A stretch of 23,135 nucleotides of DNA, taken from positions 1 to 23,135 of the IMG/VR virus record IMGVR_UViG_3300025671_000556; one strand, 5' to 3'. The position numbers and the translations under genes are program-made. Position 1 is the stretch's first letter; every line of letters begins with the position of its first letter. The DNA comes from a virus. This document shows positions 299 to 5,231 of this stretch, in pieces. A model generated the notes under the pieces. It was not told where the DNA came from. It was given only the letters and a program-made list of their open reading frames with translations, and made no database searches.

Positions 299-479
299 AA
301 TAGATAGAGTATTATCAGATGATGTTTACAATATTTGTCTGGACTGTAACCACTTGTCGCTTGATTATGGAGAAGTAGACATGGAATATGAAGAGGAGGC
401 TGTTGTTGTTTGTCCAAAATGTACAAGTAGCTATTACTATATTGCAACTGAAGAAGACATAGGGAAGGGGGCTATTTAG
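288..479 (+). CDS. Small zinc-ribbon protein, 63 aa
   Basis: The protein has two CxxC knuckles, C17/C20 (CLDC) and C42/C45 (CPKC), separated by an acidic linker. This is the classic layout of a four-cysteine zinc ribbon. The C-terminal Tyr-rich stretch follows the second knuckle. A strong GGAGG lies upstream (ATGGAGGAGGGTATCGATG). It is the last gene of its operon: its TAG stop lies inside a hairpin followed by a T-tract. The stop also overlaps that of the convergent terS gene by four bases. Zinc ribbons of this type usually bind nucleic acid or protein partners, but the partner here cannot be inferred. Confidence 0.7.
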   Translation: MNSKIDRVLSDDVYNICLDCNHLSLDYGEVDMEYEEEAVVVCPKCTSSYYYIATEEDIGKGAI

Positions 480-492
480 CCCTCTTTTTTTT
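465..492 (+). terminator. Intrinsic terminator of the left rightward operon
   Basis: The segment 465-473 can pair with 478-486 around the loop ATTT (nine pairs including one G-U), and the T-run continues to 492. The stop codon of the zinc-ribbon gene lies inside the hairpin. On the opposite strand there is no comparable T-run, so it should work mainly for rightward transcription. Confidence 0.8.
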
Positions 493-964
493 GCTCTATT
501 TCTTTTACCTCTGTAAAGTCAGCATCAATAATATCACCATACAGTTTGCGTATATCTTTTAATCTAGACTGTACTTGGTCTAAGCTCATTGAATCAATAG
601 AATTAACCACATGAATGTTTTGTGCATGATTGTAAAATCCTGCCGCCTGACCTCGATTCTTTTCAGCTTGAACGGCTGCACTCCAGGCATTTTTTTCTTC
701 TGCTTTTCTGGACAGTTCGTCTAATCTACTGACGTGTCTGTCATAAGTAACGGCAGTTTTGTGTTGCATTTCTTTTTTCATTTCATCGATGTATCTAACA
801 ACCTCAGGGTGTTTCTGAGGATTCAATAATTCAGATGCTGTTACAGTTGCTCTGCTTTCCCCATATCCTGCACGTTTTGCCGCCTCTGTGGCTGTAATCT
901 TTCCATCATTTGAAACGTATTCATTAACAAATCTAAGTTGTTTTAACGTTAAGCGTTTAGTCAT
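476..964 (-). CDS. terS: Terminase small subunit (DNA packaging), 162 aa
   Basis: The N-terminal half matches phage small terminases: MTKRLTLKQLRFVNEYV opens a helix-turn-helix region with TEAAKRAGYGE (about residues 26-36 of this start), then the conserved HPEVVRYIDEM block. The C-terminal half is helical, with an NAWSAAVQAEKNRGQAAGFY segment typical of the oligomerisation region. TerS recognises the packaging site on phage DNA and hands it to the large subunit, which is not in this window. The start is taken at ATG 962-964 because homologous proteins begin with this MTK sequence; an in-frame ATG eight codons upstream (988) has no visible Shine-Dalgarno. The stop overlaps that of the convergent zinc-ribbon gene by four bases. 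The gene is alone on its strand, facing the GTAC-rich gap upstream. Confidence 0.85.
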   Translation of the reverse strand: MTKRLTLKQLRFVNEYVSNDGKITATEAAKRAGYGESRATVTASELLNPQKHPEVVRYIDEMKKEMQHKTAVTYDRHVSRLDELSRKAEEKNAWSAAVQAEKNRGQAAGFYNHAQNIHVVNSIDSMSLDQVQSRLKDIRKLYGDIIDADFTEVKEIEQKKEG

Positions 965-1032
965 ACGCCTATATATAGAAGATATCAAAAGTTAATTCTA
1001 TTAAAAAATTAAGTAACTCCTGAGAGAACTAA

Positions 1033-1103
1033 AACGTACTATGAAGGTACTAAGTAAATCATTGTAATATAAAGATTAATTGGTCAAAGTACGTTAGTAC
1101 GTT
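1033..1103. repeat. GTAC-centred repeat cluster in the terS upstream gap
   Basis: The gap between terS and the HNH-like gene holds AGTACGTT twice in tandem (1088-1095 and 1096-1103). An inverted copy AACGTACTA lies at 1033-1041 (complementary to TAGTACGTT at 1095-1103), and a second GTACTA starts at 1047, 11 bases after the one at 1036. The palindromic core GTAC thus occurs four times in about 65 bases. A TATACT (1130-1135) resembling a -10 box follows on the plus strand without a convincing -35. Operator, TerS-binding (pac/cos-type) or origin roles are all possible; none can be chosen from sequence. Confidence 0.5.
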
Positions 1104-1174
1104 GAGTTTCAGAGTTGAAGGATAAAAATTATACTACTAACTTTTAATTTCTTCTATATGTGTTACTATACACC

Positions 1175-1399
1175 ATGCGAAATTATAAAAAAGAGTACAA
1201 AAACTACCATTCCAAGCCAAGTGAACGTAAAAGAAGGTCCTCCAGAAACAAGGCCCGTAGAAAATTAGGCGATAAAAAAGGTTATGACGTTTCGCACCGT
1301 GATTCGAACCCCATGAATAATAAGAAAAGTAACCTCAAACATTCAAAACCATCAAAAAATAGGTCATTTAAACGTACAAAAACGGCCCGTGAAGCCTAA
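1175..1399 (+). CDS. Small basic HNH-like phage protein, 74 aa
   Basis: An extremely Lys/Arg-rich protein with an N-terminal run of basic residues (YKKEYKNYHSKPSERKRRSS) and a central DVSHRDSNPMNNKKSNLK block. That block matches the core of HNH-type folds, where D/N-H-x-D-x-N-P-x-N-N-x-x-x-N-L supplies the catalytic His and the helix Asn. Similar short basic proteins are common near packaging genes in marine phages and are often called HNH endonuclease-like or DNA-binding. The position just after the terS gap fits the observation that HNH nucleases often sit beside terminase genes. The start is ATG 1175; a GTG at 1160 is possible but adds only five residues. No good Shine-Dalgarno is visible. 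Whether it is a nuclease or only a DNA-binding derivative is uncertain. Confidence 0.7.
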   Translation: MRNYKKEYKNYHSKPSERKRRSSRNKARRKLGDKKGYDVSHRDSNPMNNKKSNLKHSKPSKNRSFKRTKTAREA

Positions 1400-1842: not shown

Positions 1843-2064
1843 TTACTCATTCGAAATCGTGTAGTTTTTGAAACACTCTGGGTCAAGCGGTGGTCCGTAG
1901 TAGTACGTAACGGCCTCACCTTCGGTCCATGTTTGGTGGTAGTACTTATTTTCATTGATTTCCCCTTGTGAGTGACAAATCTTACACTGACCAATTGATT
2001 CTTCGTTTTCAAATTTAAGTCTAACATATCCATTTCCTTTGCAATTGTAACATATCACTTCCAA
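1843..2064 (-). CDS. Small DnaJ-type zinc-finger protein, 73 aa
   Basis: Two cysteine knuckles of the DnaJ central-domain type are present: C5/C8 in CYNCKGNG and C27/C30 in CKICHSQG, matching the CxxCxGxG pattern twice. Full DnaJ has four such motifs plus a J domain; neither is here, so it is a single zinc-binding unit rather than a co-chaperone. The C-terminal half is Tyr- and Glu-rich with no known motif. It overlaps the GcrA-like gene by ten bases and is the last gene of the leftward operon, just before a hairpin. Similar one-module DnaJ zinc-finger proteins are frequent in phages; the function is unknown. Confidence 0.7.
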   Translation of the reverse strand: MEVICYNCKGNGYVRLKFENEESIGQCKICHSQGEINENKYYHQTWTEGEAVTYYYGPPLDPECFKNYTISNE

Positions 2065-2315
2065 CTCCTTTGATGCGTGTCATAATATCGTATAATTTTT
2101 TCATACTCTGCTCTGCCTCTCTTCGGTATTGTATAAGGAGAATCTTTAGGAGGTTTATAACCGTTCTTTAATTTACGTCTATACACGGCGCCTAATACAG
2201 AATTCTTACTACGGCCAAAGATAGTGCCTATCTGTGAATACGAATACTTTTCTTTTAACTTTTCAATTAGATCTAATTCTCTGTCTGTATATTTTTTTTC
2301 AATTCCACTTCTCAT
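2055..2315 (-). CDS. GcrA-like helix-turn-helix protein, 86 aa
   Basis: Residues about 9-50 (YTDRELDLIEKLKEKYSYSQ followed by IGTIFGRSKNSVLGAVYRRKL) match the helix-turn-helix of the GcrA family: an acidic first helix, the SQI-x-x-x-x-GRS turn and the recognition helix SVLGAVYRRKL, where GcrA has RNAVIGKVHRL-type sequence. In alphaproteobacteria GcrA is a cell-cycle transcription factor that works with sigma70 at methylated promoters. A phage copy could redirect host transcription or simply bind phage DNA. It lacks the long GcrA C-terminal region; the tail after residue 50 is basic. Its start is coupled to the 105-aa gene by an ATGA overlap (2312-2315). The family points to an alphaproteobacterial host, though GcrA-like HTHs also occur in unrelated phages. 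Confidence 0.7.
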   Translation of the reverse strand: MRSGIEKKYTDRELDLIEKLKEKYSYSQIGTIFGRSKNSVLGAVYRRKLKNGYKPPKDSPYTIPKRGRAEYEKIIRYYDTHQRSWK

Positions 2316-3364: not shown

Positions 3365-3546
3365 GCGGACCCCTCTGGTTTAGACATAGCGAGGTAATGT
3401 TCCTCGTCTATCTCGTTTCCTAAATCCCATTGAACGCGTACCCAAACATCAATGTTATCACCACCGTGTTTATCAACGAATTCTTGAGACGTCATCTCTG
3501 CAGCATCTTGCTCCATATCCATAAGCCAGTTTTTTACACTACCCAT
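3361..3546 (-). CDS. Small acidic hypothetical protein, 61 aa
   Basis: An acidic protein with the segment MTSQEFVDKHGGDNIDVWVR, giving a helix followed by a strand, and a helical DEEHYLAMSK end. No family is recognised. AAGGAG lies about eight bases upstream of the ATG, and the gene overlaps the RHH gene by eight bases and the 55-aa membrane-protein gene by four (ATGA). It is part of the leftward early operon behind the SNF2 helicase. An acidic product of this size could be a host-protein inhibitor, but nothing specific supports that. Confidence 0.65.
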   Translation of the reverse strand: MGSVKNWLMDMEQDAAEMTSQEFVDKHGGDNIDVWVRVQWDLGNEIDEEHYLAMSKPEGSA

Positions 3547-3742
3547 TTTTCTTCTCCTTATGTTTATTTACTAACCATACAATCTGATTACTGATGGAAC
3601 GTAAATCTTTATCTGCTAACTTCTTAAGATCTTTCCACGTATTAAGTGGAACTGTTACAGACTTATATTTATCCGTGTTCATAAAATTCCTTTCTGGCCA
3701 AAAGACCGTGTGTTTATAAAAAGTAACTAATCTATCTTCCAT
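3539..3742 (-). CDS. Ribbon-helix-helix (Arc/MetJ-type) DNA-binding protein, 67 aa
   Basis: Residues about 25-64 fit a ribbon-helix-helix: the strand KYKSVTVPL, helix A NTWKDLKKLADKD, a turn, and helix B SISNQIVWLVNKHKEKK. RHH proteins bind operators as dimers through the paired strands, so this is a candidate regulator of phage early genes. The start at ATG 3742 has AAGGAG eight bases upstream; an internal ATG (residue 21) also has AAAGGA ahead of it, and the minimal 47-residue RHH from there would be complete, so two forms are possible. It directly follows the SNF2 gene (43-base gap). Its operator might be among the inverted repeats in the divergent gaps, but that is not testable by reading. 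Confidence 0.65.
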   Translation of the reverse strand: MEDRLVTFYKHTVFWPERNFMNTDKYKSVTVPLNTWKDLKKLADKDLRSISNQIVWLVNKHKEKKNG

Positions 3743-3785: not shown

Positions 3786-5231
3786 TTAAGTCAACCACTC
3801 CTTTAATTCTTCGCCTAAAACTTTCGCGGCAATGTCTATTTTATTTCGAAGACTCTTAACAATTTTTTCATCGACAGTCTTCTCTGTCATTAAATCAATG
3901 TAAGTAACGCTTTTGGTCTGACCAATACGATGCGCTCTATCTTCTGATTGAATTCTTTTTTCTAAATCGTAGTTGTTAGAATAATAAACAACAGTGCTTG
4001 CGGCGGTCAACGTCAAGCCGTAGCCGGCGGTCTGTTGATTACCTACAAAAAATCGCAAGGAATTGTCTGGATCCTGAAAGCGCTTGACAATCTCTTGCCG
4101 TTCCTTATCTGGTGTGTCACCAAAATAAGTTGATACACTATCGACCCCGTATTCCTTTTCTATCTCCTGTCTGATGTTACGAATATCTTGTCGATAGTTA
4201 GCCCATATAATAACTTTTCCATCTGTTTCAGCAAGTATATTCATTAATTCTTTTATACGATTATTTTTAAATGTCTGGATTTCTCCGTCTTCTCCTGTAA
4301 GATGCCCGCAACTAATTTGATGTAGTCGTAATAGTTGTGTCATTACAGTAGGCGCCGTAACCAAACCACCCTTCTCAAGTTCTGCTAAAGCAAACTCTTT
4401 CATTGTTGAATACGCTTTCTTTTGTTCGTCTGATAACTCAACAACTCTCTTCGTATAAACTTTAGGTGGTAGATCTAAACAATCTTCTTTCAATACTCTA
4501 TAGGAATAAGGTTCTAATAATCCACTGAGCTCACCCAAGTTTCGGTAACCAACAACTTTATTAAAGATGTGTGTACCAACATTTGTTTTTACCTGAATGC
4601 AGTATCTACTTTTAAAACTGTAGTAAGAAGAAAATCCTAAGATCGCCGGATCAAGAAATTCACATTGTGAAAATAAATCAATCGGATCTTTTGTAACAGG
4701 AGATCCTGTTAGAATTCTTTTAAACTTCGCAAGTGTACCAAGCTTTAAAATATTTTTTGTTTGTTGTGCTTTTGGATTTTTTATCGTGGTGCTTTCATCT
4801 ACCGCCATCAATGCACGATGACCATTTAGAAAGCGTTCCGCGAACCGTGCACCCTTAGTCGTACGAAGCGCTTCAACATTCATTAATAATATGTCGAGCG
4901 TCAGATCCTTCGGGTCCTTTATAATACTCTCTAACAATTCCTTCTCTGTCTTATTAGGAGTAGGTGTCCACGATACAACATAAGGTTCAACGTGATCAGG
5001 CAAGTGATTAGGTATTTCTTGTTTCTCCCAGTTACGATACACGCCCTTTGGTGCAATAATAAGAGCACCATTAATATAGCCTTGGTCATACAACATAGAC
5101 ATATTATCAATGAGAACTTTCGACTTACCTGTTCCCATTTCCATGAATAAACCATAGGATTCTTTCTCCCATGACTTTTCTAATGCAGTTTTTTGATGTG
5201 CGTACGGCACAGTTTTAAATGGATAATCCAT
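3786..5231 (-). CDS. SNF2-family (superfamily 2) DNA helicase/translocase, 481 aa
   Basis: All SF2/SNF2 motifs are visible: Walker A MEMGTGKSKV (GTGKS 33-37), motif Ia ALIIAPKGVYRNW (56-68), Walker B LMAVDESTTIKN (D145/E146), motif III LTGSPVTK (174-181). In the second RecA lobe are KVIIWANYRQD, VKRFQDPD, TAGYGLTLTAASTVVYYSNNY and the motif VI RAHRIGQTKSV, the arginine-finger signature of SNF2 proteins. The length is that of the compact phage SNF2 helicases, with no extra domains. Such enzymes translocate on duplex DNA; in phages they are thought to assist replication fork remodelling or recombination, comparable in role to T4 UvsW. It is first in the leftward operon, after AGGAG, and divergent from the replication module, from which it is separated by a 96-base gap. 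Confidence 0.9.
   Translation of the reverse strand: MDYPFKTVPYAHQKTALEKSWEKESYGLFMEMGTGKSKVLIDNMSMLYDQGYINGALIIAPKGVYRNWEKQEIPNHLPDHVEPYVVSWTPTPNKTEKELLESIIKDPKDLTLDILLMNVEALRTTKGARFAERFLNGHRALMAVDESTTIKNPKAQQTKNILKLGTLAKFKRILTGSPVTKDPIDLFSQCEFLDPAILGFSSYYSFKSRYCIQVKTNVGTHIFNKVVGYRNLGELSGLLEPYSYRVLKEDCLDLPPKVYTKRVVELSDEQKKAYSTMKEFALAELEKGGLVTAPTVMTQLLRLHQISCGHLTGEDGEIQTFKNNRIKELMNILAETDGKVIIWANYRQDIRNIRQEIEKEYGVDSVSTYFGDTPDKERQEIVKRFQDPDNSLRFFVGNQQTAGYGLTLTAASTVVYYSNNYDLEKRIQSEDRAHRIGQTKSVTYIDLMTEKTVDEKIVKSLRNKIDIAAKVLGEELKEWLT

Follow-up and report, generated by a model that had tools for sequence, protein, structure and literature searches.

A terS-linked bipartite repeat array with lineage-specific words as a candidate packaging-start region in phages

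What purpose do short, regularly spaced sites serve when they cluster directly upstream of a phage terminase gene? The question is raised by the gap in front of terS in the DNA analyzed here (the window: 23,135 nucleotides of IMG/VR virus record IMGVR_UViG_3300025671_000556), where the original prediction placed four GTAC-centred sites, considered either as the packaging site recognised by TerS or as an operator controlling both divergent genes. The four sites are real and lie where they were placed, two on the minus and two on the plus strand, and the spacing of one helical turn corresponds to the 11 bp separating the two minus-strand sites (Table 1). The leftward gene was correctly named, as its product meets Pfam Terminase_2 (51.3 bits against a cut-off of 26.1, E 2.5e-13) and PHROG 51 (phrog_51, 8.4e-17), and a TerS profile constructed from 16 relatives matches the solved TerS 21di, 3zqp, 2cmp and 4zc3. 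The rightward gene, described as HNH-like, is also present, but its likeness to HNH proteins is weak.

Table 1. Positions of the elements of the terS upstream gap and of nearby genes in the window
Feature	Position	Strand	Remarks
terS, terminase small subunit	476..964	-	ATG at 964, frame open to 988
Non-coding gap	965..1174		210 nt, from ORF list; holds the whole dyad element
Left outer arm of 29-nt inverted repeat	973..1001		83% complementary; kept in 13/13 clade members
Word site A, TAGTACGTT	1033..1041	-	13/13 clade members
Word site B, TAGTACCTT	1044..1052	-	11 bp from site A; 13/13 clade members
Centre separating the two opposed site pairs	1053..1086		position only
Word site C, AAGTACGTT	1087..1095	+	13/13 clade members
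Word site D, TAGTACGTT	1095..1103	+	tandem with C at 8 bp; 13/13 clade members
TATACT, -10-like box	1130..1135	+	starts 27 bp after the tandem
Right outer arm of 29-nt inverted repeat	1131..1159		kept in 13/13 clade members
Small basic gene, weakly HNH_3-like	1175..1399	+	HNH_3 E 0.0032, below Pfam cut-off
GcrA/Myb-like small protein	2055..2315	-	Myb_DNA-bind_6 E 0.00051, below Pfam cut-off
Ribbon-helix-helix protein	3539..3742	-	Pfam RHH_5 E 0.00049, below cut-off

Two mirrored outer arms, which the original prediction had missed, frame the four GTAC sites, and these make up the interior of a larger dyad; the core of this outer inverted repeat was matched by none of 1000 gap shuffles. GTAC is not enriched over the whole window (46 found versus 49.3 expected). 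Within the 210-nt gap, four GTAC were equalled by 96 of 5000 shuffles, and four AGTACGTT-like sites with at most one mismatch by 8 of 3000. The words presumably serve as protein-binding sites, and the centre between the opposed pairs would be a candidate cut or wrap region.

The TerS scan yielded 15 loci, 12 belonging to the window's clade and three (L012–L014) to a sister clade. All 13 clade members (the window and the 12 loci) retain the tandem as well as the two inverted sites and the two outer arms. The -10-like TATACT, found at the predicted distance from the tandem pair, occurs in 4 of the 13; it is not conserved and is probably not a promoter. In the sister clade, where TerS is 83–85% identical to that of the window, the gap likewise combines an inverted repeat with a word, GTAATGTA, that recurs. 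The HNH-like gene is missing there (by eye) and the array is retained; the gap's other neighbour varies in general, while terS is constant (by eye). A conserved promoter for each divergent gene was therefore not found in these two clades, and the idea of an operator serving both genes is weakened.

Between the window's clade and L012–L014 the words and the TerS helix change together, and in the comparison of the window with L014 the TerS changes concentrate in the N-terminal helix-turn-helix (HTH) region. However, silent fourfold sites of terS differ at 16 of 24 positions in codons 1–80 versus 6 of 21 in codons 81–163, so that the joint change of word and TerS is likely confounded by a recombined tract in the 5' part of terS. 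Although their terS arrays differ, the two clades also share TTTTGTGTACGTTTAGCG-like units that are clustered at the 3' terminus of a nuclease-like gene (by eye), at a distance of ~3.4 kb from terS and outside the window (8301–8504 in L179, record G004; around 8041 in L168, record G003). In records G001 and G004 a related 8-mer, AAACGTAC, is clustered once more ~3.4 kb away from terS, so that the word core also occurs in part outside the gap.

Linkage to terS extends beyond the clade. The exact 16-mer AGTACGTTAGTACGTT was found in 32 stretches of the viral collection, 27 of which adjoin terS and five of which are without TerS. The TerS beside it is 94–100% identical to that of the window at 12 loci and 36–41% identical at 15, so the comparison with relatives proposed in the original prediction came out in favor of the sites. 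These 15 distant loci represent two TerS groups that are 65% alike, and the independent evidence is accordingly smaller than the count. Their layout is similar, with one to three inverted copies located ~57–77 nt from the direct copies. When 12 terS-linked records, none known to be complete, were searched whole, 35 of 38 exact AGTACGTT occurrences fell inside the terS array.

Exact and gapped pattern scans gave at least 122 loci that were taken on, 40 of them with a TerS detected by HMM (34 of 91 in an earlier pass). In each of these 40 the first spacing is 0, 1 or 4 nt, and many of the other gapped-pattern matches are probably due to chance. Eleven pattern loci in which the HMM detected no TerS have at least four AGTACGTT-like sites in a span of 150 nt. 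In three unrelated phages (L119, L075 and L076) four or five such sites lie beside a large-terminase-like gene (by eye); nine (L122, 1968–2078) and eight (L106, around 2050) adjoin primase-like and HNH-like genes (by eye); and in L087 and L093 three AGTACGTT follow one another every 10 bp, with a TerS-like gene (by eye) ~550 nt away.

To cover the wider TerS family, the distant TerS group was taken as a query; it confirmed at least 547 relatives, 80 of which were used, and a second TerS query confirmed 313, of which 80 were used, some contigs being common to both sets. An 8-bp word was called in 168 of 194 loci, which represent 63 distinct gap groups; the remaining 26 lacked a TerS at E 1e-10 or an LTxxQ motif, or had less than 330 nt upstream. 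Word repetition upstream of terS exceeded that in 12 shuffles in 57 of the 63 groups and that in 20 shuffles in 56. The same test applied to eight other segments was passed by 2/49, 4/57, 5/62, 0/62, 6/55, 4/51, 9/47 and 3/39 groups. The segment from +700 to +1000 downstream of terS could not serve as a control (47 of 59 groups pass, 46 of 59 against 20 shuffles), since a repeat array of another kind lies there, and further offsets were run instead. That array consists of G+C-rich units of ~7 bp (TGCGCCC; in L226 at about +800 to +900 nt past the LTxxQ anchor) close to the 3' terminus of a nuclease-like gene (by eye), and it occupies the same place in most relatives.

Seven of the 63 groups did not rise above the 20 shuffles: L001, L010, HTVC027P (L162), 023Pt_psg01 (L164), L108, L290 and L332. 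The first two belong to the window's own clade, and the window's gap type is borderline, with a score of 7 against a maximum of 6 in 12 shuffles of L016 and of 9 in 20 shuffles of L001, the group that holds the window. The window's own array draws its support from conservation and inverted repeats.

An alignment of 23 gaps revealed a shared frame (elements by eye). It begins with a CTATAG element, a TTCTCCAGA-like stretch and an A/T tract; three word copies, a centre often containing AGCCCA and up to three opposed copies follow, and mirrored TCTGGAGAA and CCTATATAGG, a promoter-like TTG...TATAAC and the terS start make up the right side. Mirrored CTATATAG/TTCTCCAGA elements flank the opposed site clusters. 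Among the 49 groups with strong scores, all have both word orientations, 26 have AGCCCA, which was not seen in the window's centre, 18 have CTATATAG at the right and 27 have TATAG at the left. Their best 8-mers number 32, or 28 after strand merging and 19 words after register merging. A similar frame with another word, TGTTACGA, was seen by eye at 4670–5000 of L368, a contig in a Maricaulis MAG. The terS array is a conserved, terS-linked, bipartite site, and its layout is common across phages while the words are lineage-specific.

Because the opposed triplets are complementary, the array could in principle act as an RNA or cruciform structure in which the words need only left–right pairing. 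We regard this as highly improbable: in L200 the word variants are arranged such that left and right units mismatch (by hand), the tandem units within an arm are alike although pairing does not demand it, and Rfam gave no match in the window at the gathering threshold.

If TerS alone read the words, identical TerS proteins should accompany identical words, and this is not the case. Full-length TerS is identical in L225/L226 (words TGTTGACA and TGAGAACA), L253/L252 (TGAGAACA and TGAGTACA), L223/L224 (TGAGTACA and GGGTTCCC) and L196/L200 (TGTTTACA against TGAGTCA with TGCGTCA). Altogether, eight of 15 pairs compared have TerS identical from the anchor on yet different words; one of these pairs also has TerL proteins that are 99.4% identical. 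In seven of the eight pairs the word sites (39–88% alike) have diverged more than the remaining gap (77–94%); the exception is L253/L252, with 84% in the word sites versus 73% in the rest of the gap. For L260/L307 the difference is a single point (80% versus 81%), and the words of L246/L242 differ in one edge base only. Conversely, the 400 positions preceding the anchor agree at 368 between L343 and L347, whose TerS proteins have 10 differences, several of them within the HTH region. When an identical TerS is accompanied by differing words, TerS alone does not choose the word, and TerS as the only reader was rejected as a general rule; something besides TerS seems to set it. The proposal of a packaging site recognised by TerS consequently holds for the linkage to terminase and the packaging-site-like layout but not for TerS as the whole answer, given that one array also occurs with different HTH regions.

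TerS, or TerS together with TerL, might nevertheless read a loose frame (T....AC) and the geometry, leaving the middle of the word unread, with copies homogenised by slippage or template switching. This would account for a TerS that stays unchanged between words, for the many words that fit the frame TNNNNACR, for the mixed words in the single genome of L200, and for the limited exactness of the copies, as 228 of 366 sites match the word exactly and all sites are exact in 5 of 49 groups. Yet isolated copies far from the triplets have the same word, GGGTTCCC and TGAGTCA break the frame, and the downstream array, although also repetitive, kept its best 8-mer in four of six same-TerS strain sets and differed in two. 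We therefore consider such frame reading rather improbable.

A search for another reader was conducted on two same-species pairs of long contigs, G031/G032 and G049/G050, the G031 comparison excluding an estimated ~18 kb of mostly structural genes. In both pairs TerS is unchanged, most large proteins are 89–100% identical and several small ones 70–93%. No nameable shared DNA-binding protein changes with the word in these pairs, and accessory genes differing between strains do not track the words, either there or at other loci. A ribbon-helix-helix (RHH)-like protein was rejected, being 100% identical in G031 and G032 and not tracking words; for the RHH protein of the window, the presumed DNA-contact strand KSVTVP is identical in L013, whose word differs. 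Between G031 and G032 an HTH-like protein has three changes outside the likely recognition helix and an AlpA-like protein is 100% identical (families by eye).

Further candidates were likewise dismissed. A two-domain protein (L264 7442–8002, G031) has a near-identical N-terminal half and a C-terminal half replaced between the two strains, and its types do not follow the words. A SANT-like 109-aa gene (by eye; no Pfam match) lies beside three words only and is present in G048 but missing from the corresponding place in L280; a 197-aa accessory gene, known from three loci of two phage groups, does not fit; and none of the small genes downstream of terS fits at the 16 loci compared. The GcrA/Myb-like protein is a possible candidate reader; eight different versions of it are recorded for the window's clade, and the sister phages L012–L014 gave no match. 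Between terS and terL lies a hypervariable protein of ~380 to 1731 aa (L268 12471–17663, in G033, and counterparts immediately preceding terL). G033 and G036 agree in this protein at 51% over 170 aa, whereas their terL is 98% identical.

The G031/G032 pair also bears on a replication origin with iterons that lies beside terS by accident. An AT-rich dyad with repeats, present at one place per record, is what an origin could look like; however, the polymerase-, helicase- and primase-like proteins of G031 and G032 are 97–100% identical (functions by eye) while the words differ, and the conserved feature is the link to terS. An origin is therefore very unlikely.

The main rival to a packaging start is an operator array for terS, in which a phage or host regulator would bind the words and time terS expression, its specificity diversifying as that of immunity repressors does. 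In relatives the array lies upstream of a seeming sigma-70-like terS promoter, TTGNNN-N17-TATAAC (by eye), a position that, as read from the sequence, suits an operator as well. The regular 8–11 bp phasing, the opposed site groups and the independence of word identity from TerS point the same way. On the other hand, no second cluster of a record's own word was seen in the 24 records scanned, and thus nothing to suggest that a regulator controls its own gene or that further operons share the operator, with the AAACGTAC cluster of G001 and G004 as a partial exception; no regulator covaries with the word among the shared genes of a same-species pair (families by eye); and loss of the divergent gene leaves the array in place. 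On balance we regard an operator as somewhat unlikely.

We tentatively prefer to read the terS-upstream dyad as a packaging-start region, of pac or cos type, with a putative second reader. It is suggested by the conserved bipartite site tied to terS and by a layout like that of P1 pac and phiBB-1 pac. In the wider family the words do not covary with the TerS recognition helix, as they would at a lambda-type cosB, which leaves a packaging start with a second reader, or with a TerS that reads the frame only, as the likeliest arrangement. In the proposed mechanism, opposed clusters of the 8-bp word would flank the short centre, and proteins binding the words on both sides would bring terminase to the centre in a manner resembling P1 pac. 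A second factor of the phage or the host would set the word, and TerS and TerL would act on the common frame. We infer each of the three elements, namely the start of packaging at the array, the binding of the words by a protein and the setting of the word by a second factor. The words that differ although TerS is identical, the one array that accompanies different TerS helices, the lack of a clear array in HTVC027P and DSL-LC04, the AAACGTAC cluster, the borderline gap of the window, the position relative to the promoter-like sequence, the lack of a reader among the candidates and the lack of evidence for fixed genome ends count against the packaging-start reading. Of 112 distinct upstream contig ends, 20 fall in the interval 100–400 nt ahead of the LTxxQ anchor, roughly threefold the rate on either side, but they are spread out with no sharp point, and assembly breaks suffice to explain this enrichment.

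A more speculative proposal, which we consider unlikely, is that the array is an exchangeable DNA address, by which a fast-changing reader (an accessory protein, a satellite-driven or a host factor) selects genomes for packaging or terS expression. If true, it would resemble an immunity or anti-parasite lock. The family in any case provides a natural allelic series, with one layout and 19 words in the 49 strong groups, several of them beside the same TerS; such same-TerS word pairs could show whether TerS or a partner reads the sequence, and for many uncultured phages the arrays mark sites that may act in packaging or control.

No paper was recognised in the open-access literature searched as reporting such arrays; PMC9599517 does not contain 'intergenic' or 'terminase small', nor PMC12753301 'terminase', 'packaging' or 'promoter'. 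In its accessible part, a review calls TerS DNA binding still unclear and controversial (PMC9611059). The nearest named relatives by TerS are DSL-LC04 (42%), HTVC027P (42%), HTVC023P (40%) and 023Pt_psg01 (34%). HTVC023P has an array of its own, with CTAGGAAA five times upstream of terS, and pelagiphages of this type differ from the window in having other words; upstream of terS, HTVC027P and DSL-LC04 have no clear array and 023Pt_psg01 a weak one.

Three characterised systems offer comparisons, each described here from the accessible text of the paper cited. In lambda, 21 and N15, the TerS HTH reads its own site, and helix and R sites differ together (PMC4669245). Like the arrays, the lambda-type cosB has several R sites of mixed orientation beside the terminase genes, with specificity differing between relatives; here, in contrast, words differ with TerS unchanged. 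The pac of Borrelia phage phiBB-1 is a 377-bp intergenic region whose motifs, direct and inverted, keep a fixed order (PMC11008901). This region is located upstream of the erp locus and has a mapped cut, whereas the present site is tied to terS and known from sequence. P1 pac comprises 161 bp, with seven hexamers split into HEX4 and HEX3 around the cut (PMC10028697). The terS array resembles it in its size of ~160 bp, in the short-word copies on either side of a cut or centre and in its link to the gene of a TerS-like subunit; words cluster on either side of the centre as 2+2 sites in the window and as up to 3+3 plus single sites in relatives. It lacks P1-type Dam (GATC) sites in AGTACGTT and the listed family words (by eye), lies upstream of terS and not inside it, and differs further in its opposed 8-bp words, its mirrored outer arms and a word that changes between close relatives. 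By likeness to P1, the centre of the array may be a candidate for cutting of the same kind.
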